Part shown: positions 13,906 to 29,965 of the stretch, piece after piece
Layout of the letters: every line of letters begins with the position of its first letter
Position numbering within the stretch: the first letter of the stretch is position 1
Origin: Bacillota bacterium
GTDB lineage: Bacteria > Bacillota > Clostridia > Lachnospirales > Bianqueaceae
Reading direction: 5' to 3'
Assembly (NCBI GenBank): GCA_017634575.1
Contig: JAGBND010000065.1
Span: forward strand, 1-36,936
DNA length: 36,936 nt
The notes under the pieces: model-generated
Told to the model about the DNA's origin: nothing
What the model saw: the letters and a program-made list of their open reading frames with translations, nothing else
Databases searched by the model: none
Position numbers and translations under genes: made by a program

Positions 13906-13940
13906 AATGAGACAATCGCCTCTGACCCCTTTGTCTCATT
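13906..13940. repeat. 10-bp inverted repeat just after kduD
   Basis: AATGAGACAA (13906-13915) and TTGTCTCATT (13931-13940) form a perfect stem with a 15-nt loop that reads AGGGGTCAGAGGCGA on the minus strand. There is no good T-tract. It might be a weak terminator, or a copy of a dispersed palindromic element. Confidence 0.5.
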
Positions 13941-17667: not shown

Positions 17668-18795
17668 TTAGCCGTTCTCCCGCAGAATTTCCGTATAGCA
17701 CAGAATGAAAGGCGCGACGCCCTTTGCATCCCCCTGAACGACAGGCTCGGAAATATAATAAGCATAGGTTCCGTCCCGTCTTCTGTTGTTCTCCGGTCCA
17801 AGGCCGGCCACCAGACAGATTCCGCCAAGGTTCAGCTGTCCATCCTCAAAGGACAGATATTTCTTCACAATGCCGTCGAAGGCTTTATGGCCTTTTGCGG
17901 CATATTCTTTTGGAAGAACGCCAAGTCTGGACCCCTTCAGCATAGCGTAGGCCAGCATGCTGCTGCCGCTGGTTTCCAGGTAGTTGCCCTCCCGTCCCGG
18001 CTGATCCGGCACCTGATAATACATGCCGGTATCCGGATCCTGATAGGCGCTGACGCCTTCCATCAGTTCGGTAAAAATGCGGCTGATTGTATCTCTGGTC
18101 CCGGATTCGGAAAGAATGTCCAGAAGATCCGCCATGGCAACCGCAAACCAGCCGATGCTTCTGAGCCAGAAGCTTGCTGAACGGCCGGTTTCGGGATCCG
18201 CCCAGAAGGCTTTTTTGCTCTGGTCATATCCGTGGTAATACAGCTTCTTTTCTTCATCAAACATCCGCTCTCTCACGGTTTCAATCTGATGAAGCAGATC
18301 GCTGTAATCACCCTTGCCAAAGTTTTTCTCGTAAAGCGCATAGAAGGGCTGCGCCATATAAATGCCGTCCAGCCAGACCTGGTTCGGATAAATCAGCTTG
18401 TGCCAGAAGTTTCCTTCCCCTGTTCTGGGCTGTTTTTCCAGCTGATCGTATAAAAGCTCAGCTGCTTTTTTGTATTTTTCTTTTCCCGTGCGCCGGTAAA
18501 GCTCAAACAGCACACGTCCTTCATTGATATCATCGAGATTGAACTTTTCCTGAGAATAAGTCCGGATGGTTCCATCTTCCTGCACGAAGGAATCGATGAA
18601 ATGCTCCACAAAGCCAAAATATCCGTCGTCAGGGAAAAGCTCATCCATGGACAGCAGCGCTGTCATCATGCATCCGTCGATATAGTTCCACGAGGTTTTC
18701 TTGCCCTGACGGATCGTTTCAATATTCCAGATCGTTTTCTCAGGCGTCGACTCCTTAATGAGCCGTTTCACATATGCATCAATCTGTTCGTACAT
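17668..18795 (-). CDS. Unsaturated galacturonyl/rhamnogalacturonyl hydrolase (GH105)
   Basis: GH105 enzymes remove the unsaturated uronic acid left at the non-reducing end of pectin fragments by lyases. The 375-residue protein is close to the B. subtilis YteR size, and the key aspartate in VWLDGIYM falls at residue 143, the same number as the YteR catalytic Asp. D88 in NLDDINEG also fits, and RSIGWFAVAM (~212) and ETSGSSMLAYAM (~273) are family blocks. There is no signal peptide, so it acts in the cytoplasm. It starts 2 nt after the GH28 stop and is the last gene of the importer operon. Its product feeds KduI. Only ~44 bp separate it from the convergent regulator, with no good terminator seen. 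Confidence 0.93.
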   Translation of the reverse strand: MYEQIDAYVKRLIKESTPEKTIWNIETIRQGKKTSWNYIDGCMMTALLSMDELFPDDGYFGFVEHFIDSFVQEDGTIRTYSQEKFNLDDINEGRVLFELYRRTGKEKYKKAAELLYDQLEKQPRTGEGNFWHKLIYPNQVWLDGIYMAQPFYALYEKNFGKGDYSDLLHQIETVRERMFDEEKKLYYHGYDQSKKAFWADPETGRSASFWLRSIGWFAVAMADLLDILSESGTRDTISRIFTELMEGVSAYQDPDTGMYYQVPDQPGREGNYLETSGSSMLAYAMLKGSRLGVLPKEYAAKGHKAFDGIVKKYLSFEDGQLNLGGICLVAGLGPENNRRRDGTYAYYISEPVVQGDAKGVAPFILCYTEILRENG

Positions 18796-18797
18796 GA

Positions 18798-20363
18798 TCA
18801 GCCCTTTCGGATATCTTCCGTTTCCAGTGTCTCACAGTGCTGCGTCAGAAGCGCTTCTCCTTCCACGCCCTGCAGGGATACATCTTTTACCGAGATATGC
18901 CGTACATTATCCAGATAAAGGCCCAGCCGGCACCGCTTTTTCGCAAAGTTTTCCATAATGGGAACGCCCGGCTTTGCATCCTCGGCAAAAGAAATGCTTA
19001 CATGCTCGATCACCACTTTTTCAATCGGCGATTCCGGAAGACCGTCAATGTAGCAGGCGGCAACTTCCGCATCGGTACAGACAAGATTTCTGAAGCAGAA
19101 GGATCCCATCCTGGGCGTTCTTTCGTCCACCGGCAAAGCTTTGCGGGACCAGACATATTCGCTTTCGCTGTCCGGATCGCAGGCGTTGTACCACATATTC
19201 ACTGCAATGGGGGTCAGCACGCCATCCATACGGATGTTCTCAAACAGCACGTCATTCAGATAGCAGTTCTTTCCCCGTCCCCGGCGGCTTTTAATGCGAA
19301 GACCGCGGTCCGTCTTTTTGAAATAGCATTGAGAGACAGACAAATTGGTCACGCCAGCGCCGATTTCGCTTCCCAGGGTGACAGCCCCATGGCCAAATTC
19401 CATCAGGCAGTTGCGGATGGTATGATGATCAGCCGGCTTGTTAAGCTTTTGTCCCAGTTCGATTTTGCTGGACTTGATGGCAATGCAGTCATCTCCAACC
19501 GAGAAACGGCAGCCGATGATGTCCACATAATCACAGGATTCAGGATCGATGGCATCCGTATTGGGACTGACCTTCGGCGCCTGAACCTTCACGTCCAGAA
19601 TCCTAACATTTTCTGAATAATAGGGATGCAGATTCCAGGAAGGCGAATTGCAGGCCAGTACGCCATGAAGGGTGACATCTTTGCAGCGGTTAAAAAACAT
19701 CAGTCTCGGTCTGGCTGCAGGGAACTCGCGAAATCCCTTCCAGAAACCGCCCTCTTCGCCGCTGCCGTTCACGGCGCCTTTACCGACGATCGCCACATCT
19801 TCGATGTATTGACCGGTAATCAGGGACTCGTACATGGGAATGGCATAACCCTCGAAACCGCCGAAATAGACCTCCCGGCCAAATTCGTCCTGCAGAACGC
19901 CGGGACAGATCGGATAATCCTCCCGGTTCCGCCAGCCAAGGATCGTTGCATTCTCCTGAAGATCCAGGGTCATGTGGCTTTTCAGCACAATAGGCCTGGT
20001 CAGATACGTGCCTTCGGGGAAAAGCAGTCTCCCCTTCGGCGGCATGTAGGATACAGCCATGCGAATGGCGGAAGTGTCATCATGAACGCCATCGCCGCAG
20101 GCACCGAAATCCTTGACATTCAGGCAGCAGCTCTCGTATGCGGTTTCAAATTCAAGCTCTTCCACCCGATCGGAAAAGACAGCCTTCAAAAGATAACGCT
20201 GCTGCGGTTTCAGATCGAAGAGAGAAAAGACATTCGTATCACATTCAAATTTCAAGTCCTCGTTCAGGAAGACCTGAAAAGGTTCCGGCGCGTAATAGGG
20301 ATTACTGCCGGCAAGTTCAAAGCACGCGCTGCTTGAACCGATATAAACTACTGATATACTCAT
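18798..20363 (-). CDS. Cytoplasmic GH28 polygalacturonase (probably exo-acting)
   Basis: GH28 enzymes hydrolyse alpha-1,4 galacturonan. The 521-residue protein has an N-terminal beta-sandwich-like domain (~1-78), seen in exo-polygalacturonases, then the beta-helix with all catalytic blocks: NTDAID (268-273), GDD (290-292), GHG (324-326) and RIK (356-358). There is no signal peptide. I chose ATG 20363, with AAGGTGG 12 nt upstream. A TTG at 20375 would overlap the RBS and the upstream stop. The gene follows the 4-TM protein D by 8 nt. Cytoplasmic location and domain order suggest it trims imported oligogalacturonides from the end. Endo activity or rhamnogalacturonan specificity cannot be excluded. 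Confidence 0.93.
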   Translation of the reverse strand: MSISVVYIGSSSACFELAGSNPYYAPEPFQVFLNEDLKFECDTNVFSLFDLKPQQRYLLKAVFSDRVEELEFETAYESCCLNVKDFGACGDGVHDDTSAIRMAVSYMPPKGRLLFPEGTYLTRPIVLKSHMTLDLQENATILGWRNREDYPICPGVLQDEFGREVYFGGFEGYAIPMYESLITGQYIEDVAIVGKGAVNGSGEEGGFWKGFREFPAARPRLMFFNRCKDVTLHGVLACNSPSWNLHPYYSENVRILDVKVQAPKVSPNTDAIDPESCDYVDIIGCRFSVGDDCIAIKSSKIELGQKLNKPADHHTIRNCLMEFGHGAVTLGSEIGAGVTNLSVSQCYFKKTDRGLRIKSRRGRGKNCYLNDVLFENIRMDGVLTPIAVNMWYNACDPDSESEYVWSRKALPVDERTPRMGSFCFRNLVCTDAEVAACYIDGLPESPIEKVVIEHVSISFAEDAKPGVPIMENFAKKRCRLGLYLDNVRHISVKDVSLQGVEGEALLTQHCETLETEDIRKG

Positions 20364-20371
20364 ATGGAAAG

Positions 20372-21019
20372 TCAACCACCTTCTTCAGTCTTTCGCTTGG
20401 CATCCTGCACAAGATGAATCATGGTACGTTTCATTAAGATGAAAAGCAGATCAAATCCCGTATAGAAAACACCAAACAGGATAGGGCCGACACCCAGCAC
20501 CTGCCTTCCATCAGCAGACAGAGGTGCTAACACGATATTGATCAGGTTGTATAGAACATCCACACAAACCAGCAGCAGCATCGCGTAAAAGATATTCCAG
20601 ATAAAGGTCAGGTACCGTTTTTTGGGGAACATCATAAAACGGTCATTGTCCGCACGGCCCTTGGCCATAAATCGGAGAATGTTATTGGTAAGAATATCCG
20701 TGACGACACCGAGCGCAATGGCAAAGACCAGCATCAGATCGAGGTGAGCCGTGAGATACGTACTCAGTCCCCAGAAGATAAAAAAGCAGACGGAACCGGC
20801 AAACCACATCTTCACCAGCACTGCTTTGATCCATCCCGGAATACGCAGCTTTGGACCGGATTGGTATTTTCTAAGTTCCTCCTCGGAAACCTCCGGTGAA
20901 TTTTCTTCGTTGGCTTCCACCAGATCTTTGACGGCATCCGTGTGGAGTTCATAATACTCCGAAGCCGCCTTGCTTTCCTCAGGAGCCAGTCTTTTTTTCT
21001 TTTTCTCGGATGATGCCAT
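20372..21019 (-). CDS. Uncharacterised 4-TM membrane protein (D) in importer operon
   Basis: This 215-residue protein has a charged cytoplasmic N-terminus (~70 residues, Lys- and Glu-rich) and four hydrophobic segments (~WIKAVLVKMWFAGSVCFFIF, LDLMLVFAIALGVV, FIWNIFYAMLLLVCV, ILFGVFYTGFDLLFIL). I chose ATG 21019, preceded by AAAGAGAGA. In-frame ATGs at 21043 and 21067 lie nearer the intercistronic hairpin and lack an RBS. It does not clearly resemble the DUF624/YesL proteins found beside Bacillus pectin transporters. It lies between the 4-TM protein C gene and the GH28 gene. Function unknown; likely linked to the importer by operon position. Confidence 0.8.
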   Translation of the reverse strand: MASSEKKKKRLAPEESKAASEYYELHTDAVKDLVEANEENSPEVSEEELRKYQSGPKLRIPGWIKAVLVKMWFAGSVCFFIFWGLSTYLTAHLDLMLVFAIALGVVTDILTNNILRFMAKGRADNDRFMMFPKKRYLTFIWNIFYAMLLLVCVDVLYNLINIVLAPLSADGRQVLGVGPILFGVFYTGFDLLFILMKRTMIHLVQDAKRKTEEGG

Positions 21020-21061: not shown

Positions 21062-21126
21062 CCGCACGCACCCTGTTCATCCTGCGCCAGAAGGTACAGG
21101 CTGAAGGCGGGGCGGGTGCGGTGCGG
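21062..21126 (-). other. GC-rich intercistronic hairpin between membrane proteins C and D
   Basis: CCGCACGCACCC (21062-21073) pairs with GGGTGCGGTGCGG (21114-21126) with one bulged G, around a 40-nt loop that contains a smaller CGCC/GGCG stem. There is no T-tract, so it is more likely an RNA-processing or stability element than a terminator. Confidence 0.5.
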
Positions 21127-21147: not shown

Positions 21148-21732
21148 TCAATCATCTTCGCCGGAGATGTCAATTGCATCCAGCTTGCCGTAATCCTCCA
21201 CCACAACAGAGGTTTTGATCTTACGAAGAAGCTTGGTGTAAAGAGGCATCAGGGCGATCAGTACAACACCGATTACTTCAATCACAATATGATCCTGAAG
21301 CACGTTGTAGGCCTGCGCAATATATACCGTGGAAGCATCCAGCTTGATGGGATTTTCCGCACGAGTCAGCGCTGTAGTAATCAGATTGGAATAGTAGACA
21401 TCGCAGAAAATAATCACTGCGAACATCACGCACATCAGCACGACCATCGCGATGACCGGCTTCTTTCTGCGGGGAAACGCATTCAGGAAGCAGACCAATG
21501 AAAGCATGGAGAAAAGCATGGTGGCAAATGCACACAGGCCCATTCCGCTTCCCTGGATTTTTGCGGTGGTATCGGAGATGTGAGTCAGGTTAAGTGAATA
21601 ATAGAAGAAAGCAATCAGAAGAACCAGCAGAGGAATGATCGAGGGTTTCCGTTTGAGCCCAACGATCAGTTTGCGCAAAAATTCCGGCATATGGCTGGCG
21701 TTTTTCACGCCGTTTTCTACTTTTGCACTCAT
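21148..21732 (-). CDS. Uncharacterised 4-TM membrane protein (C) in importer operon
   Basis: 194 residues with four hydrophobic segments: ~SIIPLLVLLIAFFYYS (32-47), GLCAFATMLFSMLSLVCF (~65-82), AIAMV-type segment PVIAMVVLMCVMFAVIIF (~91-108) and IVIEVIGVVLIALMPL (~148-163). A basic loop (PRRKK) lies between the second and third, and the C-terminus is acidic. The ATG overlaps the ATPase stop as ATGA, so translation is coupled. The segment layout and basic loop resemble proteins A and B of the same operon, which suggests distant paralogy. Function unknown. Confidence 0.82.
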   Translation of the reverse strand: MSAKVENGVKNASHMPEFLRKLIVGLKRKPSIIPLLVLLIAFFYYSLNLTHISDTTAKIQGSGMGLCAFATMLFSMLSLVCFLNAFPRRKKPVIAMVVLMCVMFAVIIFCDVYYSNLITTALTRAENPIKLDASTVYIAQAYNVLQDHIVIEVIGVVLIALMPLYTKLLRKIKTSVVVEDYGKLDAIDISGEDD

Positions 21733-22805
21733 GCGTTTATCCTCCTTCCGATAGCATCTCCGGTTTCTTTATCAAAGAAATGTTTCTGAGCAAAGGTAAC
21801 GCCCACGTCATCGCCTTCGTGATAGTCAAACCATCCGCGAAGCTTGGCGGAAATACGGTTGCCGTCGCCGATATGTCCGTTTACCAGGGTGTTCATGCCG
21901 AGGTTCTCGTTGGAGAATACATTCAGCTTCAGATCATCGCCCTTCAGGACGTTCTCAGGTCTGACGCCCAGCTCGATCTCTTTGCCTGCATAGGCGGAGA
22001 GGATCTTCTTGTCTTCCTCGGAAAGAGCAAGGGTAAAGCCTTTTCCTTCCAGTTTGTTCTCGCGCACGGTCACGTCGAAGAAGTTCATGGGCGGAAGACC
22101 GATGAAGCTGGCTACGAAGTGGTTGCGGGGCGCATCGTACAGTTCCAGAGGCGTGCCTACCTGCTGCACATGACCCATGGACATACAGACAATGCGGTCC
22201 GCCAGGGTCAGGGCTTCCGTCTGATCGTGGGTAACGTAAAGCATGGTAGCCTTCAGCCGCTTATGAAGCAGCAAAATCTCACGTCTGGTGGCGCCGCGCA
22301 GCTTGGCATCCAGGTTGGACAAAGGTTCGTCAAAAAGGAAAACCTTGGGATTTCTGACAATGGAACGGCCCATGGCAACCCTCTGACGCTGTCCGCCTGA
22401 AAGCTGGGCAGGCTTCTTGTTGAGCTGAGAGGTCAGTCCAAGAATCTCTGCAGCTGCCAGCACCTTTTTGTGAATGACATTGGGATTTTCTTTTCTAAGC
22501 GTCAGGGAAAAGGCCATGTTTTCATAAATGGTCATATGGCCGTACAGCGCATAGTTCTGGAAAACCATTGCCATATCACGGTCTTTGGCAGGGGTCTGGG
22601 TAATCTCTTTGTCATCCAGAAAGACATGACCGGCTGAGATATCCTCAAGACCTGCGATCATGCGCAGCGAGGTGGATTTGCCGCATCCGGAAGGGCCGAC
22701 CAGAACGATCAGCTCTCCGTCCTGCACATCCAGGTTAAAGTCGTAAACCGCCTGCACATTGTTGTCATATATTTTGTCGATATGCTGAATATCAAGATGT
22801 GCCAT
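21729..22805 (-). CDS. Sugar ABC importer ATP-binding protein (UgpC/MsmX type), copy 2
   Basis: 358 residues with Walker A GPSGCGKST (~37-45), Q-loop MVFQNYALYG (~80), signature LSGGQRQR (~135), Walker B VFLFDEP (~154) and H-loop VTHDQTEA (~189), plus the C-terminal MalK-like regulatory domain. The RBS is GGGGGAGG. It lies in the importer operon, so it should energise the two permeases encoded upstream. It is placed between two pairs of small membrane proteins (A and B before, C and D after), an unusual position. It differs clearly in sequence from copy 1 at 15664-16743, so the two are not a recent duplication. Confidence 0.92.
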   Translation of the reverse strand: MAHLDIQHIDKIYDNNVQAVYDFNLDVQDGELIVLVGPSGCGKSTSLRMIAGLEDISAGHVFLDDKEITQTPAKDRDMAMVFQNYALYGHMTIYENMAFSLTLRKENPNVIHKKVLAAAEILGLTSQLNKKPAQLSGGQRQRVAMGRSIVRNPKVFLFDEPLSNLDAKLRGATRREILLLHKRLKATMLYVTHDQTEALTLADRIVCMSMGHVQQVGTPLELYDAPRNHFVASFIGLPPMNFFDVTVRENKLEGKGFTLALSEEDKKILSAYAGKEIELGVRPENVLKGDDLKLNVFSNENLGMNTLVNGHIGDGNRISAKLRGWFDYHEGDDVGVTFAQKHFFDKETGDAIGRRINA

Positions 22806-22819
22806 TGTTAACCTCCCCC

Positions 22820-23308
22820 TTAAGCTGACTGAATGTTCAGAGTTTCGAGGTGCTGTTTAAGGGCGCGGCTTCTTATGTAGCCAACCACAGCACTGGCTAT
22901 CAGGCAGATGGCCGACAGCAGAAGGTACAAAACACATCTGACAAACTGGGCTGTTTCCATGACAATCACAGCCTGATCCTGAATGGTCACACTGGAGCTG
23001 TGCGCCCGGACAGGATAAATGAAAATCCGGATAATCTGGATCACGCCAAGGACTACCAGCACATAGGCATAAGGAATCTTGTAATTCTTGATACCTTCGG
23101 AGCTTAAAAACGCAGCCAACATGAAGATCAGGTTGTAAAGAATAGAGGCGCCCATCAGGATGTTGTAGTACCAGGATCCTACATTGGATTCATAGATGCT
23201 GATAAAATAGAAGACATCAAACAGGATAGCAGCGATCGCCAGGGTTGAGGCCAACGAGTTTTTGGTATAGCGCATGCGGTCCAGGCGGATCTGTTTTTCT
23301 TCACTCAT
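22820..23308 (-). CDS. Uncharacterised 4-TM membrane protein (B) in importer operon
   Basis: 162 residues with four hydrophobic segments (~LASTLAIAAILFDVFYFIS, ILMGASILYNLIFMLAAF, YAYVLVVLGVIQIIRIFI, VLYLLLSAICLIASAVVG). A GSWYYN motif before the second segment matches GSIVYYN in protein A, and a basic stretch (IKNYKI) occupies the same place as IRRKYY in A. These shared features suggest A and B are paralogues that may pair. Its ATG overlaps the stop of A as ATGA. It ends 14 nt before the ATPase gene. Function unknown. Confidence 0.82.
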   Translation of the reverse strand: MSEEKQIRLDRMRYTKNSLASTLAIAAILFDVFYFISIYESNVGSWYYNILMGASILYNLIFMLAAFLSSEGIKNYKIPYAYVLVVLGVIQIIRIFIYPVRAHSSSVTIQDQAVIVMETAQFVRCVLYLLLSAICLIASAVVGYIRSRALKQHLETLNIQSA

Positions 23309-23895
23309 GCCGCTTCCTCCTTTCCTGTCTCGATCAGGTTCTTTTCTTCCTTCATCAGACGGACCTTCCAGATGGTGCAGCAGACCAGAGCAATCGCGGT
23401 CAGGATGGAGATGGCAAATACCAGGTAGTGAATGTCAAACCAGAAGGTAGACTCCGTGTATATCGTTTTCCACATCTCTGCATGCTCCTTAAGGGCTGCA
23501 AAATCCACTCTCAGGAAACGTTCTTTATAGGCTTCGATATATCCATGGGCTTCGATGGCCACATAGATATTGCTTACCGCAAAAAGACCCACCGCAATAT
23601 AGTTGCCGATGTAGTACTTCCTGCGGATATGGGAATTGGTCAGGAACAGAAGACACGAAATCAGAATCAGAACAATAGCCTCCTTCAGAAAGTAGGCGTT
23701 GAACACCTGCATGTTGTAATACACAATCGAACCGGGAACATCGGTCTCTTCCAGATTGGCAGGGTTCTTCATTGTCGAGTACAGCGTGTCATAAAGGTCG
23801 GTCATTATTCCGAGCGAGTAAAGGAAAATCACCGCGCTCGACGCAATTGCCAGAAAGCAAAGGATCTTCTGCAATGTTAGCTGTTTTTTATACAT
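23305..23895 (-). CDS. Uncharacterised 4-TM membrane protein (A) in importer operon
   Basis: 196 residues with four hydrophobic segments (~ILCFLAIASSAVIFLYSLG, AIVLILISCLLFLT, YIAVGLFAVSNIYVAI, YLVFAISILTAIALVCC). Two extramembrane stretches (~35-60 and ~118-148) are long enough to contact other subunits. A strong RBS (AAGGAGGAG) precedes ATG 23895. It is the first gene after the solute-binding protein, separated from it by a stem-loop at 23929-23975. It shares the YYN motif and basic loop with protein B. Function unknown; an accessory subunit or regulator of the importer is the simplest idea from position. Confidence 0.82.
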   Translation of the reverse strand: MYKKQLTLQKILCFLAIASSAVIFLYSLGIMTDLYDTLYSTMKNPANLEETDVPGSIVYYNMQVFNAYFLKEAIVLILISCLLFLTNSHIRRKYYIGNYIAVGLFAVSNIYVAIEAHGYIEAYKERFLRVDFAALKEHAEMWKTIYTESTFWFDIHYLVFAISILTAIALVCCTIWKVRLMKEEKNLIETGKEEAA

Positions 23896-24023: not shown

Positions 24024-26246
24024 TTAGTTCAGTGTGCTGTAGTAGGCGCTCAGACGGTTCCAGGCATCCTGCTTCAGAGCCAGATACTGTTTGCCGCCCC
24101 ACTCTTCAGAGACCTTGGCGACAGAAGCTTCTTCGCTTCCCATGCCTTCCTCAGTATAACCGGCAACGATCTGGTTAACGAACAGATTCTCGCCGTCTTT
24201 GGCAGAGTTGAATTTACCCTTAGAGGTCAGCTGCGTGTAGGTGTTGAGCATATCGTTTTCGGACTTGGTGTTCGGAAGAACGGTAGGAACGGACATGTAC
24301 CACGGATTCTCGGTAATCGCCAACTCCGGATGTTTGATGGTTCCAAGGGCGATAGCCTTGGAAATGTAGCCTGCGCCTTCACGGCCGACATCAGAGGTGC
24401 ACTGATATTCGAAAGCCTGGCTCTTTGCAAAGCTCAGGGTAGAACCAAGGTACTGACGGGCATAGTTGGTGTAGTTGCCGCTTGCCTTCTCCCAAAGCTC
24501 GGCACGGGTAGCGTCAGCAATCTCGGGCATCTGCTTTCCGTTGAATTCAAATGTGACATAGCTTCCATCAGCATTAGTCTTGATGAATGCATCGGGACCA
24601 TAGCTCATGAGAATCATGCCTTCGGGTGAGTATGCATAGTCGATCAGTTTAAGGGCAGCATTCAGCTTGTCAGGATTGCCCTGTACGCCGGCTGCAGAGA
24701 TTCCCCATCCATCGGTCTTAACAGATCTCCAGGACTCGGTGAAGCGCATATAGTTGCCGCCGTTGGTTCCATCAAACCAGCAGGCAACGGGAACCATGAC
24801 TGCCATGTACTTTTCGCCATCCTGGAAAACGCCCTGGCTGGGATCGTTGTACAGGGTCTGGGTCTGGTTGTAGTCGTAGTGCATAAAGCCGGAATCGTTC
24901 TCCAGATACTGTTTCGTCTTGCCTTCGGCGGTGTTCATGAAGTTTTCGGAGATCAGGCCTTCCTTTGCCATGGCATTCATTCTTTCCATTGCAAGGTAAG
25001 CATCAACACTCTGACGAGCATCTTTCAGGGTTCCATCAACATCGAAGTACAGATAGTCCTGACGGGATTCAAGTCCGCGGACACCAAACAGATGGCCGGC
25101 AAAACGGACCATGTCGACGCGGCGCTGGTTGTTGTCATCTTCACGGGCGAACAGTCCCTGAATGGAATCGGTGCCGTTGAGGGTCTGGGGGTTAGCAACG
25201 ACGCAGCGAAGCAGCGCAACCAGCTCATCTGCATCCCAGCAGGCGTTCTGTCCAACGAACAGATCGGAACGTTTGGTTCCATAGTATCCGCCGTAGCACT
25301 CGTCGATATAGGTACGAAGCATATTAACGGCAGCTACACCGTCCATGGAACCGGCTTCGTTCATCTTTACGATGATGTTGCCGGAAGCATCATAGTCTTT
25401 GGTAACCATTTCGGTTCCGGATCCATCGGCCTTCACGGTCTCGATTTCAATCTTTCCGGAAGCGGGCATATAGTTGGTGTAAACCGGTTCAGCTGTCTTG
25501 TTGCTGGCAGAAGCAGTAAATTCGCCTTCGCCGTCCAGCAGCTTCTCGACCATGTCCACACGCATCAGAGGCATACGCTCGATATCGTTAACACCATCAA
25601 AGTAGGGAGAGAAATAGATCGCACCGGTATCGGTGTTGCCGGTAATGGAAAGACGGACAATGGGGTTGGCTTCCAGATAAGCCTTGAAGTTGGGCATCTG
25701 ATCCAGATACTGGGCGATATTAACGATGACGCCCTGTTCGCCGTACTCGGTCAGCTTGCTGGCGTTACCGGAAAGCATATCCACATCACCCATACGCTCT
25801 TTCCAGTAGTCGAATTCATCAGAAGCACTGTTGCCCTGATACTTGTCTTCGATCTTGATGCCCAGAACATTCTGAACCTCTACCCAGGTGGGTTTCAGAT
25901 CGCCGGCATGATAGGTGATGCCATCGGCCAGAGTAATACCCTCGCCTGCAACTTCGGCATCCATGGAAAGACCGGTCTTGGTGGAGTTGTAACCGGTAGC
26001 CATGCGAAGAACGGTGCCATCCGCATAGGTCAGCTCACCGGCAGCGGCTGTTTCGGTAGGAGCTGCAGCATCTTCGGTGGAAGTGCTGGTATTTGTATCG
26101 GCAGCCTGGGAAGCCTGGGAAGTTTCCTGGCTGGCCTGGCTTTGCTGATACTGGTCAACATCAATTTTGCTGCTGCAGCCGGCAAGCAGGCCAAGGGCCA
26201 GAACAGCTACGAGCATAAGAGCAATGACTGAACTTTTTCTTTTCAT
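24024..26246 (-). CDS. Very long ABC solute-binding lipoprotein
   Basis: Solute-binding lipoproteins capture sugars outside the cell and deliver them to the permeases. The 740-residue protein has a lipoprotein signal (LLAGC, Cys24) and a Ser/Thr/Gln/Ala-rich linker (~27-75). A periplasmic-binding fold follows, with DYWKERMGDVDMLSGNASKLTEYGEQG near 150 and WGISAAGVQGNPDKLNAALKLIDYAYSPEG near 570, the latter a typical binding-protein block. Usual family members have 430-560 residues; the extra ~200 lie in the middle (~250-400) and could form a subdomain for longer ligands. The RBS is AAAGGAG. The permeases lie upstream in the same operon. Ligand by context: pectin oligosaccharide. Confidence 0.9.
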   Translation of the reverse strand: MKRKSSVIALMLVAVLALGLLAGCSSKIDVDQYQQSQASQETSQASQAADTNTSTSTEDAAAPTETAAAGELTYADGTVLRMATGYNSTKTGLSMDAEVAGEGITLADGITYHAGDLKPTWVEVQNVLGIKIEDKYQGNSASDEFDYWKERMGDVDMLSGNASKLTEYGEQGVIVNIAQYLDQMPNFKAYLEANPIVRLSITGNTDTGAIYFSPYFDGVNDIERMPLMRVDMVEKLLDGEGEFTASASNKTAEPVYTNYMPASGKIEIETVKADGSGTEMVTKDYDASGNIIVKMNEAGSMDGVAAVNMLRTYIDECYGGYYGTKRSDLFVGQNACWDADELVALLRCVVANPQTLNGTDSIQGLFAREDDNNQRRVDMVRFAGHLFGVRGLESRQDYLYFDVDGTLKDARQSVDAYLAMERMNAMAKEGLISENFMNTAEGKTKQYLENDSGFMHYDYNQTQTLYNDPSQGVFQDGEKYMAVMVPVACWFDGTNGGNYMRFTESWRSVKTDGWGISAAGVQGNPDKLNAALKLIDYAYSPEGMILMSYGPDAFIKTNADGSYVTFEFNGKQMPEIADATRAELWEKASGNYTNYARQYLGSTLSFAKSQAFEYQCTSDVGREGAGYISKAIALGTIKHPELAITENPWYMSVPTVLPNTKSENDMLNTYTQLTSKGKFNSAKDGENLFVNQIVAGYTEEGMGSEEASVAKVSEEWGGKQYLALKQDAWNRLSAYYSTLN

Positions 26247-26300: not shown

Positions 26301-27191
26301 TTACTCTTTCACACCGCCAACATTAGTGCCTTTTGCGAAGTACTTCTGAATAAAGGGATAAATAATCAGAATCGGTACGATGGAGCAGACGATCAAAGCA
26401 TAAATCACGGAGTCGGAAGCATAGGGCTGATTCCAGCCGGCCATGGCTTCCGCATCGGTGAACTCCTCCAGCCTGAGCCGGATGAATACCTGCAGCGGGT
26501 GTTCATTGGAGTTGGAGATCATCTGCCTCGCCCAGAAGTATCCATTCCAACGGGAGATACCGAAGAACAAAGCAACGGTTGCGATGGTGGACTTGCTCAT
26601 GGGCAGGTAAACCTTTGTCAGTACCTGGAATTCACTGGCGCCATCCACGATGGCAGCCTCTTCAATTTCACTGGGCACGCCTTCAAAGGCATTTCTCAGC
26701 AGGATGATGTTCATGGCCGCCATACCCATGGCAATGACAACCAGCCATTTATCATCCGTAATGCCGATGGCCTGAAACACCTTCTGGGTGTCCAGGTAGT
26801 TCAGGTACTGAGGAACGATACCAGCTGCAAACCACATGGTAAAGACCAGGAAGAAATTGAAGAACTTTCTGAACAAAAGACGTTTTTTGGAAAGCGCATA
26901 GGCGCCAAGGATCGAATACAGAAGCGCCCAGATGGTTCCATAGAACGTAATGAACAGGGTGTTGGAATAGGCGTTCCAGAACATATTGTCTGAGAACATT
27001 CTCTTGAAGGCGTCAAACTGGATCGCCTTCGGGAACAACACGATCTCACCGTATTCAACTGCGCTGCGTCCGCTGATGGCCGCGGAGATCGCATACACAA
27101 AAGGATAGAGGCACGCCAGCGCAAACACGGTAAGCAGCGTATAGCTGATAATTTTGAAAATCAGCTCTGATACCTCGAGTTTTCTTTTCAT
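26301..27191 (-). CDS. Sugar ABC importer permease (LplC/YtcP type)
   Basis: 296 residues with six membrane segments and the permease coupling loop EIEEAAIVDGASEFQVLTKV (~180-200), which contacts the ATPase. It is the MalG-like partner in the two-permease importer. It follows the first permease gene by 15 nt and precedes the binding-protein gene by 54 nt. The C-terminal KGTNVGGVKE motif is typical of this subgroup. The RBS is AAAGGGGAT. Confidence 0.93.
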   Translation of the reverse strand: MKRKLEVSELIFKIISYTLLTVFALACLYPFVYAISAAISGRSAVEYGEIVLFPKAIQFDAFKRMFSDNMFWNAYSNTLFITFYGTIWALLYSILGAYALSKKRLLFRKFFNFFLVFTMWFAAGIVPQYLNYLDTQKVFQAIGITDDKWLVVIAMGMAAMNIILLRNAFEGVPSEIEEAAIVDGASEFQVLTKVYLPMSKSTIATVALFFGISRWNGYFWARQMISNSNEHPLQVFIRLRLEEFTDAEAMAGWNQPYASDSVIYALIVCSIVPILIIYPFIQKYFAKGTNVGGVKE

Positions 27192-27206: not shown

Positions 27207-28259
27207 TTAATAGAGCGATACATCCGAAGCCTTGCGGGCAATCGTGTTGGCGCCGATAACCAAAAGCATGCCAACGACGTTGTTCATCATTTCAGCTGCG
27301 GAAGCAATTCCCTTCGCGGCTCCGCCAAGGCCATACCTCTGGGCAAAGGTGGAAACTACATCAGCCGTGACATAGGTATTGGTATTATAAAGAAGAAGTA
27401 CCTTTTCATAACCGATGTTGAGAAGAGAACCGATTCTCGTGATCAGCATAATGACAATCGTAGCGAGAATGCTCGGCAATACAACATAGCGCATCTGCGC
27501 CCATTTTCCTGCACCGTCGATCTGTGCCGCTTCATAGCTGGTCGGAGAAATCGCGATGATGGCAGCAAAGAACACGATACTGTCGTAGCCTGCTCCCTCC
27601 CAGATACCGCTGATAATGTAGATCGGGCGGAAGAACGCGGGATTGTTCAGCATACCCGATTTGGCAACATCTGCGGAAATCCATCCAAGGGAAGACAGCG
27701 CCTGAGAAACAATACCCATGCCGGAGGTCAGAGAACCCTGCTTGACAAGCATGACCACCAGAGATGTCATGACAACGGTCGACATGAACTTCGGAAGGTA
27801 GGTCAGTACCTGGTAAACACTACGGGCGATGTTGGATTTGACTTCGTTAAAGAACAGAGCCAGAATGATCGGCATCGGGAAACCGAAACACAAACCATAG
27901 AAGCTGAGGATAAACGTGTTGCGCATCGCACGCCAGAATTCAGCAGAAAGATCGTCTCCGCCAACCAGCAGGCGCTTAAAGTACGAAAAGCCCGAAAACA
28001 GCTGCTCGGATACCGGAAGAACCTCATCCGATACCTTAAAGCATCCCAGGAGTTCATACATCGGGAAATAGCGCCAGAAAAGGAACACAAGGATCATCGG
28101 GATCAGCATGAGGTATAAACGCCAATCCTTCAGAATTGTCCGTCCGACATGGAGCCAATAGTGCTTCTCCACGTCATCGCGGACAGCTTGCTCCGGATTC
28201 TCTTTATAAGTACCCGAAGCCTCATCATAGATGAGAAAATCTGCTGCTTTTGATTTCAT
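27207..28259 (-). CDS. Sugar ABC importer permease (LplB/YteP type)
   Basis: 350 residues, longer than usual because of a ~45-residue charged cytoplasmic N-terminus before the first membrane segment (~LYLMLIPMILVFLFW). Further segments and the coupling loop SYEAAQIDGAGKWAQMRYVVLP (~240-260) follow, and the C-terminus ends in ...ARKASDVSLY, close to the conserved end of LplB-type proteins. Its start overlaps the upstream stop by one base (TGATG), so translation is coupled with the S-component-like gene. Confidence 0.93.
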   Translation of the reverse strand: MKSKAADFLIYDEASGTYKENPEQAVRDDVEKHYWLHVGRTILKDWRLYLMLIPMILVFLFWRYFPMYELLGCFKVSDEVLPVSEQLFSGFSYFKRLLVGGDDLSAEFWRAMRNTFILSFYGLCFGFPMPIILALFFNEVKSNIARSVYQVLTYLPKFMSTVVMTSLVVMLVKQGSLTSGMGIVSQALSSLGWISADVAKSGMLNNPAFFRPIYIISGIWEGAGYDSIVFFAAIIAISPTSYEAAQIDGAGKWAQMRYVVLPSILATIVIMLITRIGSLLNIGYEKVLLLYNTNTYVTADVVSTFAQRYGLGGAAKGIASAAEMMNNVVGMLLVIGANTIARKASDVSLY

Positions 28260-28840
28260 CAGTACCCTCCTTTTTCTTCTTCTGATTTATGTAATCGCAG
28301 TAGATAATGCTTTTGGTTTTCAAAAATGCCGTCCATGCGTCTTGCAACCCATATGACTACGCCTGTAAAAAGCAGGGACAGGGCATCGGTGGTAAAGAAA
28401 CCGCCCAGGTTTTGAAAGGGCGTGCCCAGAACAAATGCAACCGCTGCCCTTCCCAGCTGCATCAGGAGCAGCGTTCCGATGCCGAAAACGACACTTTTGA
28501 ACGCATCCTGACGTATTTTTTCCGAGCCGATGAGTTTCAGAGGGATCAGCATCAGCATGGAAAAAAGATTACCTATTATATAAACAGCGTACTGGGATGG
28601 CTGTGCGCCGGAGGCAAAGCACAGAACCAGTCCGCCGAGAGCAGCATGGATCGCTGCAAAGGGCTCCCACCTGATCAGCACAATCGCTGTCAGCGCGCCG
28701 ACAATGGAAACCGAGTAAAGCTGGTCGGCAAACCAATAGGAGGCTGCCTTTACCAGAAGCGTTTCCAGCACGCCTAATATCACTCCAAACAAAGTCAGGT
28801 CAATAGCCCTGTATTGCTTAAAACTAAACTGAGGGTTCAT
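28259..28840 (-). CDS. Uncharacterised 6-TM membrane protein, S-component-like
   Basis: 193 residues with about six hydrophobic segments (from ~LTLFGVILGVLETLLV to ~LLFTGVVIWVA) and a short charged C-terminus. Size and topology are those of substrate-binding S components of ECF vitamin importers, but no ECF T or A component is nearby, and I cannot show homology without a search. It is the first gene of the importer operon and is translationally coupled to the first permease. I chose ATG 28840; a TTG at 28852 is in frame but has a poorer position. It could help recruit substrate or assemble the permeases. Another possibility is a role analogous to YesL of Bacillus, which is not visibly similar. 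Confidence 0.8.
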   Translation of the reverse strand: MNPQFSFKQYRAIDLTLFGVILGVLETLLVKAASYWFADQLYSVSIVGALTAIVLIRWEPFAAIHAALGGLVLCFASGAQPSQYAVYIIGNLFSMLMLIPLKLIGSEKIRQDAFKSVVFGIGTLLLMQLGRAAVAFVLGTPFQNLGGFFTTDALSLLFTGVVIWVARRMDGIFENQKHYLLRLHKSEEEKGGY

Positions 28841-28889
28841 CGCATATCTCAATTCCTATAACCCAAGAATCACGAAAATCATTGTTCCC

Positions 28890-28918: not shown

Positions 28919-28943
28919 TATCCAAAAGGGATGAGTTATATGC

Positions 28944-28959
28944 ACAAAACGGATATTCT
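28944..28959. promoter_or_regulatory. Candidate pectin-regulon operator, site 2
   Basis: ACAAAACGGATATTCT matches site 1 (16786-16801) in 15 of 16 bases. It lies between the importer operon and the pectinesterase gene, 12 bp upstream of the pectinesterase -35, so one site could serve both directions. Confidence 0.55.
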
Positions 28960-28971
28960 CGACCTTCAAAC

Positions 28972-29001
28972 TGGACAGCCGGAACGTGGGAATGCTATAA
29001 T
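28972..29001 (+). promoter_or_regulatory. Promoter of the pectinesterase gene
   Basis: TGGACA (28972-28977) and TATAAT (28996-29001) are 18 bp apart. The predicted transcript starts near 29008, which rules out the upstream in-frame ATG at 28931 as the normal start. Confidence 0.65.
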
Positions 29002-29071
29002 CAGCGAGGTTGAAGGCACTGTTTGCTGCCATATCCGATCCAAATCTGATCCGGGAAAGGAATCTGAATTT

Positions 29072-29965
29072 ATGGCTGATTATTATCTCTCGCCCGGGGA
29101 TAATCTTCAGGAAGCAGCCGACAAGGCTCTTCCGGGAGATACGCTGCATTTAAAGGAAGGTTGCTATCGCCAGAAAGTTGTCCTGCGCGCGCCTTCCATT
29201 ACCCTTGTAGGAGAAGGTCCGGAAAAAACAGTTCTGACCGGCTCCGACTATGCCCGAAAGCTGGACGAACAGGGCCGGGAATACAACACATTTCGGACCT
29301 ACACCCTGGCGGTCACGGCAGATGACATCACCCTTCGCTCTTTATCCATCCGCAACGATGCGCTGGATCCTGTATCAAAAGGTCAGGAGGTAGCGCTCAG
29401 TGTATACGGCGACAGATTCCATATGGAGAAATGCCATCTCTTCTCCACCCAGGATACCCTGTTCTTAGGGCCTCTTCCCCTGGATCTGGTCGCCCGGTAC
29501 AAGGATTTTCTTCCCGACGAGCTCAGAAAAAGCCATCCGCTGAAAATGGATATTTCCGATTGCCTCATCGAGGGAAGCGTGGATTATATATTCGGCTGCG
29601 GAAGCTGTCTGTTCAATGCGTGTGAAATCCGTCAGATCCCGGACGGAAGAACAAACGGTTTTATTGCCGCGCCGGCTCACTGGGAAGAGATGAGTGAAGG
29701 CTTCACCTTCCGATACTGCAGCTTCACCTGCGATCCTTCCGTCCCCGAAAAGAGCATCTATCTTGCCCGTCCCTGGAGAGACTTCGGCCTTTGCTCTTTT
29801 GAAAGCTGCGCCTACGGTCCTCACATAAAGCCGGAGGGCTTTGACAGCTGGAGAGGAAGCAGCCGGCATCTGACGGCCCGCTTTTTTGAAGCGCCGGCTG
29901 TTCCAGGCAGAGCAGCCTGGGTCAGACAGCCTGATAGATCTGCTCCAGAAGCCGTCTTGAGCTGA
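29072..29965 (+). CDS. Cytoplasmic pectinesterase (CE8)
   Basis: Pectinesterase removes methyl groups from galacturonan so that GH28 and later enzymes can act. From ATG 29072 (RBS AAAGGA) the protein has 297 residues. Family blocks are in order: GCYRQKV (30-36, usually GxYxE), STQDTLFLG with acid/base D128, GSVDYIFG with nucleophile D171, and LARPWRD with R233. There is no signal peptide, unlike plant and Dickeya secreted enzymes, so it should work on imported methylated oligomers. The upstream ATG at 28931 would add 47 residues without any export signal and lies before the promoter. Its 3' end overlaps the convergent TIM-barrel gene by 44 bp. Confidence 0.92.
   Translation: MADYYLSPGDNLQEAADKALPGDTLHLKEGCYRQKVVLRAPSITLVGEGPEKTVLTGSDYARKLDEQGREYNTFRTYTLAVTADDITLRSLSIRNDALDPVSKGQEVALSVYGDRFHMEKCHLFSTQDTLFLGPLPLDLVARYKDFLPDELRKSHPLKMDISDCLIEGSVDYIFGCGSCLFNACEIRQIPDGRTNGFIAAPAHWEEMSEGFTFRYCSFTCDPSVPEKSIYLARPWRDFGLCSFESCAYGPHIKPEGFDSWRGSSRHLTARFFEAPAVPGRAAWVRQPDRSAPEAVLS

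Follow-up and report, generated by a model that had tools for sequence, protein, structure and literature searches.

The window, meaning the whole stretch of 36,936 nucleotides analysed here, is a uronate/pectin locus. It carries genes for GH28 and GH88 enzymes, a pectinesterase, KduI, UxaC, UxaA, a PfkB kinase and two MalK-type ATPases, together with a short-chain dehydrogenase at the place of KduD and a mannitol-dehydrogenase-type (UxaB-like) enzyme. A gene for a small membrane protein, referred to here as S-like, heads a run of co-directional genes (Table 1). The junctions from S-like/permB through GH88 measure, in order, -1, 15, 54, 128, -4, 14, -4, 128, -4 and 2 nt, the TGA stop of S-like and the ATG of permB having one base in common. 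The original prediction had placed S-like at the lead of a type I importer operon, and it is indeed the first gene of the operon, a position that is conserved across loci.

Table 1. Genes of the importer operon and the divergent pectinesterase gene, with positions in the window.
Gene	Coordinates	Strand	Features
S-like	28259..28840	minus	193 aa; predicted ECF S-component fold, six helices; operon gene 1
permB	27207..28259	minus	AlgM1-type permease; PF00528; phmmer match to AlgM1 (4tqu_M), E 1.2e-66
permC	26301..27191	minus	AlgM2-type permease; PF00528; match to AlgM2 (4tqu_N), E 4e-76
Solute-binding lipoprotein, AlgQ-type	24024..26246	minus	740 aa; LAGCSS lipobox; match to AlgQ1 (1y3n), E 3.7e-9
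u196	23305..23895	minus	orphan membrane protein, four TM
u162	22820..23308	minus	orphan membrane protein, four TM
MalK/MsmX-type ATPase	21729..22805	minus	PF00005 and PF17912; MsmX, E 7.4e-102; AlgS, E 6.3e-94
u194	21148..21732	minus	orphan membrane protein, four TM
u231	20372..21019	minus	orphan membrane protein, four TM, hydrophilic N-terminal region; 215 aa from ATG
GH28 (polygalacturonase family)	18798..20375	minus	PF00295; no apparent N-terminal signal
GH88 family hydrolase	17668..18795	minus	PF07470; no apparent signal
Pectinesterase	28931..29965	plus	PF01095; divergent, upstream of S-like; no apparent signal

The core of the operon consists of two homologous permeases, a MalK-type ATPase and an AlgQ-like lipoprotein, the composition of an AlgM1M2S/AlgQ-type importer. 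The AlgQ1 match of the lipoprotein is strongest at residues 385-553, and a Pfam scan of this protein gave no match. The genomic context (GH28, GH88, pectinesterase, UxaC, UxaA and KduI) suggests a uronide oligosaccharide as the cargo of the core, in this locus probably pectin-derived oligogalacturonides. By hydropathy, no signal peptide is apparent in the pectinesterase, GH28 or GH88, and the binding protein has a lipobox; oligogalacturonides are therefore probably imported and then cut inside. The lack of apparent signals further suggests that the oligogalacturonides are long, and perhaps still methylated, when they are taken up.

The window proteins u196, u162, u194 and u231 gave no Pfam match above cut-off, and relatives of the four families showed scattered weak Pfam matches only. 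Neither u196 nor u231 had a convincing match among PDB sequences. A model of u231 (pLDDT 83.9) reached a best Z of 5.0 in a structural search, with no clear match. Note that the ORF list offers an alternative GTG start for u231 at 21067. Mutual homology of u196, u162 and u194 was unsupported in the three pairs compared.

The S-like ORF begins with ATG and has six hydropathy peaks, at residues 12-30, 38-56, 61-79, 86-104, 117-135 and 148-166. The ORF of about 193 residues with six membrane segments that had been called at this position was thus borne out, on the minus strand. A TTG at 28852 would add four residues; the spacing of an upstream AGGA favours the ATG. Relatives were found in 8 of 392 genomes of the order with a single-sequence search and in 10 of 392 with a profile search. 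In the GTDB contig collection, relatives of S-like turned up at 37 loci, mostly from gut and rumen Clostridia going by record titles, and none was found in the plasmid collection searched. A sample of the phylum gave matches in 2 of 348 genomes, namely the genome of the window and a false positive (G518), where the weakly matching protein is a glycerol-3-phosphate acyltransferase (PF02660) and was dropped. The 39 relatives aligned with S-like, with identities down to 17%, align over nearly the full length. S-like is therefore a conserved protein, and a chance ORF is excluded.

In the resulting alignment of 40 sequences, Y10, R57, W58 and G171 are invariant. Nearly invariant are E26, N91 and Y87 (39/40 each), R131 (36/40), G130, E174, Q176, Y179, L180 and R182, and the C-terminal helix 176-189 is conserved. 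S-like and 40 relatives gave no match above cut-off in Pfam or NCBIfam. At E 0.5, none of the 40 members matched the S-component families of Pfam (PF12822, PF07155 and others) or the MreD family PF04093; one member reached the NCBIfam model folT at E 0.29. As a positive control, all five S components scanned from the same genome matched Pfam S-component families above cut-off. Compared as a profile with seven S components of its own genome, S-like aligned colinearly over 145 columns, a weak match (probability 8.4, E 0.004). In the control comparison, the four orphan families aligned with the S-like profile over only 16-61 columns (probability <=2.6), and homology of S-like with u196, u162, u194 or u231 is unsupported. 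A profile search of the PDB also matched two EMC4 sequences (E 0.005) across positions 43-98 of the profile, and a transporter (E 5.7); these hits were short and partial and were discarded.

An AlphaFold2 model of S-like, built from the 40-member alignment, reached a pLDDT of 91.1 and a pTM of 0.88 and has six membrane helices and one short C-terminal helix. Foldseek gave no match in the PDB at E <= 0.001; its top match, ThiT, was weak (E 0.76, probability 0.87, TM 0.47/0.51). We ran VIA-align over 927 Foldseek candidates and considered the best 50 rows. Rows 1-15 were all ECF S-component chains, including 4rfs (PanT; Z 13.8, rmsd 2.9 over 160 residues), 3rlb (ThiT; 13.4), 5edl (10.8), 5kbw (10.6), 4dve (10.3) and 4z7f (8.9). 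Most of their titles name a pantothenate, thiamin, riboflavin, biotin, cobalt or folate ECF component; we take 5edl to be of the YkoE type and 4m5b, titled a transition metal transporter, to be a NikM-type S component. Because helical bundles can reach a Z of ~13 through common arrangement alone, we put the weight on the uniform, full-length top rows (Z 13.8 to 7.9, 151-175 residues aligned) and on the drop in Z that follows them, the first row of another kind being row 16 (pMMO, Z 6.6). These results support the S-component fold of S-like as a prediction. The S-component-like size and topology first noted from the sequence hold up to that extent, through the confident model (pLDDT 91) and the first 15 VIA-align rows, Foldseek alone being weak. 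Note that structures of MreD and of 5TMR kinases are absent among the VIA-align matches listed, which excludes neither.

The usual description gives a type I sugar importer two permeases, two ATPases and one binding protein, and places ECF importers in a class of their own. Could S-like nevertheless be a true ECF S component, with a sugar or a vitamin as substrate, that uses an EcfAAT module of the cell? The predicted fold would match. No EcfT or EcfA gene is present among the scanned window genes around S-like, and a search of the rest of the genome (77.7% complete) recovered two EcfT loci, both on other contigs beside ATPases of their own. At the first (L001, G000:C101), EcfT is accompanied by a fused double EcfA, with a riboflavin-type S component ~500 bp upstream; the second lies within a CbiM-type cluster. 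The genome thus has EcfT on other contigs, and none was found near the S-like operon.

Helix 1 of S components carries an AxxxA motif that binds EcfT, as described in passages of PMC11109136. We compared equal 28-residue helix-1 segments of the 40 S-like members with those of eight PF12822 matches from the same genome, four of which score under the PF12822 cut-off. AxxxA was present in 10 of 40 S-like members and in 6 of the 8 S components. The relaxed form [AGS]xxxA occurred in 13/40 as against 8/8, always at the same place in the S components; the best column pair in the S-like family accounted for 6/40. The EcfT-docking motif is therefore unconserved in the S-like family. With this, with the absence of Pfam S-component matches from all 40 members where five of five controls match, and with its place in sugar-importer operons, S-like appears not to be a functional ECF S component, and we consider that reading highly improbable in spite of the fold and of the EcfT and double EcfA on contig C101.

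Two side observations concern the ECF complement of this genome. At L001 the genome has a separate, dedicated ECF module. L096 (G000:C146, minus strand) encodes a protein with an N-terminal match to PF07155 (ECF riboflavin S component) and a later match to MatE (PF01554); here an S-component-like domain is joined to a MATE-type transporter.

To describe the neighbourhood of S-like across genomes, we used profile-based gene calls at 43 loci with an S-like gene, duplicates having been removed before counting (L011, L012, L013 and L015, on the same contigs as L053, L039, L045 and L054). Many of these loci are close relatives, so that the counts are not independent. After S-like, permB is the first gene that the profiles detect on the strand at 40 of 40 loci where the contig continues; at the remaining three of the 43 the contig ends within 75 bp. 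The gap to permB is at most 88 bp in 36 loci and 103-440 bp in L024, L050, L051 and L052. Ten loci were scored as cut short, among them L037, where 1,875 bp remain past a binding-protein match covering about half of the profile and no u196 is seen. All 33 uncut loci keep one order of nine slots: S-like, permB, permC, binding protein, u196, u162, ATPase, u194 slot, u231. The u194 slot holds u194 by profile in 29 of these; in L016, L017, L082 and L083 it holds a shorter membrane protein that shows three to four hydrophobic peaks and is only marginally similar to u194. That four orphan four-TM proteins are locked in order with importer genes at the uncut loci arguably carries more weight than the finding of S-like. 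In L017, positions 1-2723 hold a second permB/permC/binding-protein set, next to which the five small membrane proteins went undetected; importers of the same kind thus occur also without them.

Among the 392 genomes of the order, u231 is present in 13 and S-like in 10, all of which lie within the 13; S-like without u231 was found in none. In one family, both occur in the same 4 of 22 genomes. This linkage, together with the overlap of the S-like stop with the permease start, weighs against S-like as a solitary transporter of a monosaccharide such as galacturonate, working independently of the ABC importer. Solitary transport without ECF is known for some BioY and BtuM proteins of this fold, as passages of PMC11109136 state, and for S-like we regard it as very unlikely. 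Three genomes have u231 and lack S-like. In G002 and G008 the contigs start inside the operon, and S-like was not found elsewhere in either genome. In G041 (L079) every other slot is present, the S-like gene is absent from the operon and the rest of the genome yielded no copy; immediately ahead of permB (upstream end near 13932 on G041:C34) there is a DUF4962/heparinase-type gene. Because this operon keeps the other slots, S-like is not a strict requirement.

A GH28, GH88 or pectinesterase gene was detected at 28 of 41 loci. A distant clade has other genes in its scanned flanks, namely a heparinase II/III-like gene and an IclR regulator (L016, L079) or DUF4962 (L082). From these flanking genes, the unit appears to be tied to acidic polysaccharides, pectin being one, and another acidic polysaccharide is the likely substrate in the distant clade. 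The layout of L017 and L083 is similar to that of the distant-clade loci L016, L079 and L082.

From the ORF, its family, the predicted fold, the unconserved docking motif and the fixed nine-slot operon, all of them computed, we infer the association of S-like with the importer and its function. We favour, with moderate confidence, the reading that an AlgM1M2S/AlgQ-like type I importer takes up acidic uronide oligosaccharides with S-like as its dedicated accessory subunit in the membrane, one that has the S-component fold without the EcfT-docking motif. S-like would sit beside permB and permC, along with the four other small membrane proteins. With residue faces and pocket deduced from helix ends and S-component topology, it may dock through a conserved, presumed cytosolic face formed by Y10, R11, D14, R57, W58, R110 and the tail residues G171, E174, Q176, Y179, L180 and R182. 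Conserved polar residues in the presumed outer half (E26, S45, Y87, N91, R131, T151, D152 and S155) may keep an S-component-like pocket that would bind or sense the acidic sugar and so tune or assist delivery from the lipoprotein to the permeases. S-like would probably not topple on EcfT. Its absence from G041, and the activity of a related importer whose purified tetramer shows substrate-stimulated ATPase without such subunits, in the part of PMC5430744 that describes it, suggest that S-like modifies rather than enables transport.

Four other readings compete with this one; in descending weight, S-like would be a scaffold, a receptor, a transporter working alone or a true S component of an ECF system. 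As a scaffold or assembly factor, S-like would hold together the membrane complex of importer and four small proteins and bind no sugar, as in the case of MreD, which has the S-component fold without AxxxA (passages of PMC11109136). The invariant Y10, R57, W58 and G171 and the conserved tail, all presumed cytosolic, would suit such a role, as would the joint occurrence of the five small membrane proteins. However, polar residues presumed to face outwards (E26, N91, Y87 and R131) are near-invariant too, as a ligand pocket would need, and L079 lost S-like yet kept the other slots; we regard a pure scaffold as unlikely. S-like might instead sense an extracellular uronide and signal to regulate the importer or the operon, like the 5TMR kinases, sensors of the same fold (passages of PMC11109136). 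Its conserved C-terminal helix 176-189 and its place as operon gene 1 would be in keeping with this, but at only 193 aa S-like has neither the extra N-terminal helix nor a signalling domain, and the nine window genes are tightly packed with no regulator gene between them. Such a receptor is improbable in our estimate.

The preferred reading of an accessory subunit stops short of the hybrid of ECF and type I importers proposed from the sequence. The importer-operon setting of that proposal is conserved; a working hybrid is no more than hypothetical, the docking motif being unconserved and the two EcfT genes recovered from the 77.7% complete genome lying on other contigs. A bolder version, in which an S-component-type receptor would be a second, membrane-embedded substrate-binding subunit bound directly to a type I permease pair and, with four more small membrane subunits, part of a nine-gene machine for uronide import, strikes us as conceivable and rather doubtful.

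The S-component fold, its reuse outside ECF transporters and the importer core are already known. Reuse of the fold as an assembly factor had been expected to be new; reuse outside ECF has precedents in MreD and the 5TMR histidine kinases, which share the fold (passages of PMC11109136). Like S-like, MreD and the membrane domains of 5TMR kinases combine the fold with a lack of the docking motif and a non-ECF role, according to the same passages. In contrast to them, S-like matches none of their Pfam families at the limits applied and is linked to an ABC importer, and it differs from the 5TMR kinases in having neither the extra N-terminal helix H0 nor a C-terminal signalling domain. With the ECF S components ThiT, PanT, RibU, BioY and FolT, S-like shares size, predicted six-helix fold and, presumably, membrane orientation; it differs from them in its unconserved docking motif, the lack of a sequence-family match, the conserved C-terminal tail and the type I importer operon.

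Among importers, permB, permC, the ATPase and the lipoprotein have their relatives in the alginate importer AlgM1M2SS/AlgQ1 (4tqu, 1y3n), to which the S-like unit adds five small membrane proteins in fixed order. To our knowledge, the Sphingomonas alginate cluster is without these five. The likeness to two further acidic-sugar ABC importers with a binding protein is by description, and by sequence for MsmX alone. These are YteP-YtcP-YtcQ/MsmX of Bacillus subtilis, for polygalacturonan/rhamnogalacturonan (in part of PMC11466899), and Smon0120-0123 of Streptobacillus, for GAG disaccharides and annotated as aldouronate-type (in part of PMC5430744). For the YtcQ system, that part of PMC11466899 lists nothing beyond an ATPase, two permeases and a binding protein. 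The passages on Smon0115-0128 in PMC5430744 name no small membrane proteins, list Smon0128 as a hypothetical protein and report the purified tetramer to be active. Searches of the open-access literature turned up neither a type I importer operon that includes an S-fold protein nor a fixed combination of an importer with five orphan membrane proteins.

In conclusion, an S-fold protein and four orphans beside an alginate-type importer would, if the association is true, mean that such importers can be larger assemblies, and the S-component fold would gain a further use outside ECF transporters. Testable functions are thereby suggested for five families of unannotated proteins in rumen and gut Clostridia that degrade polysaccharides.
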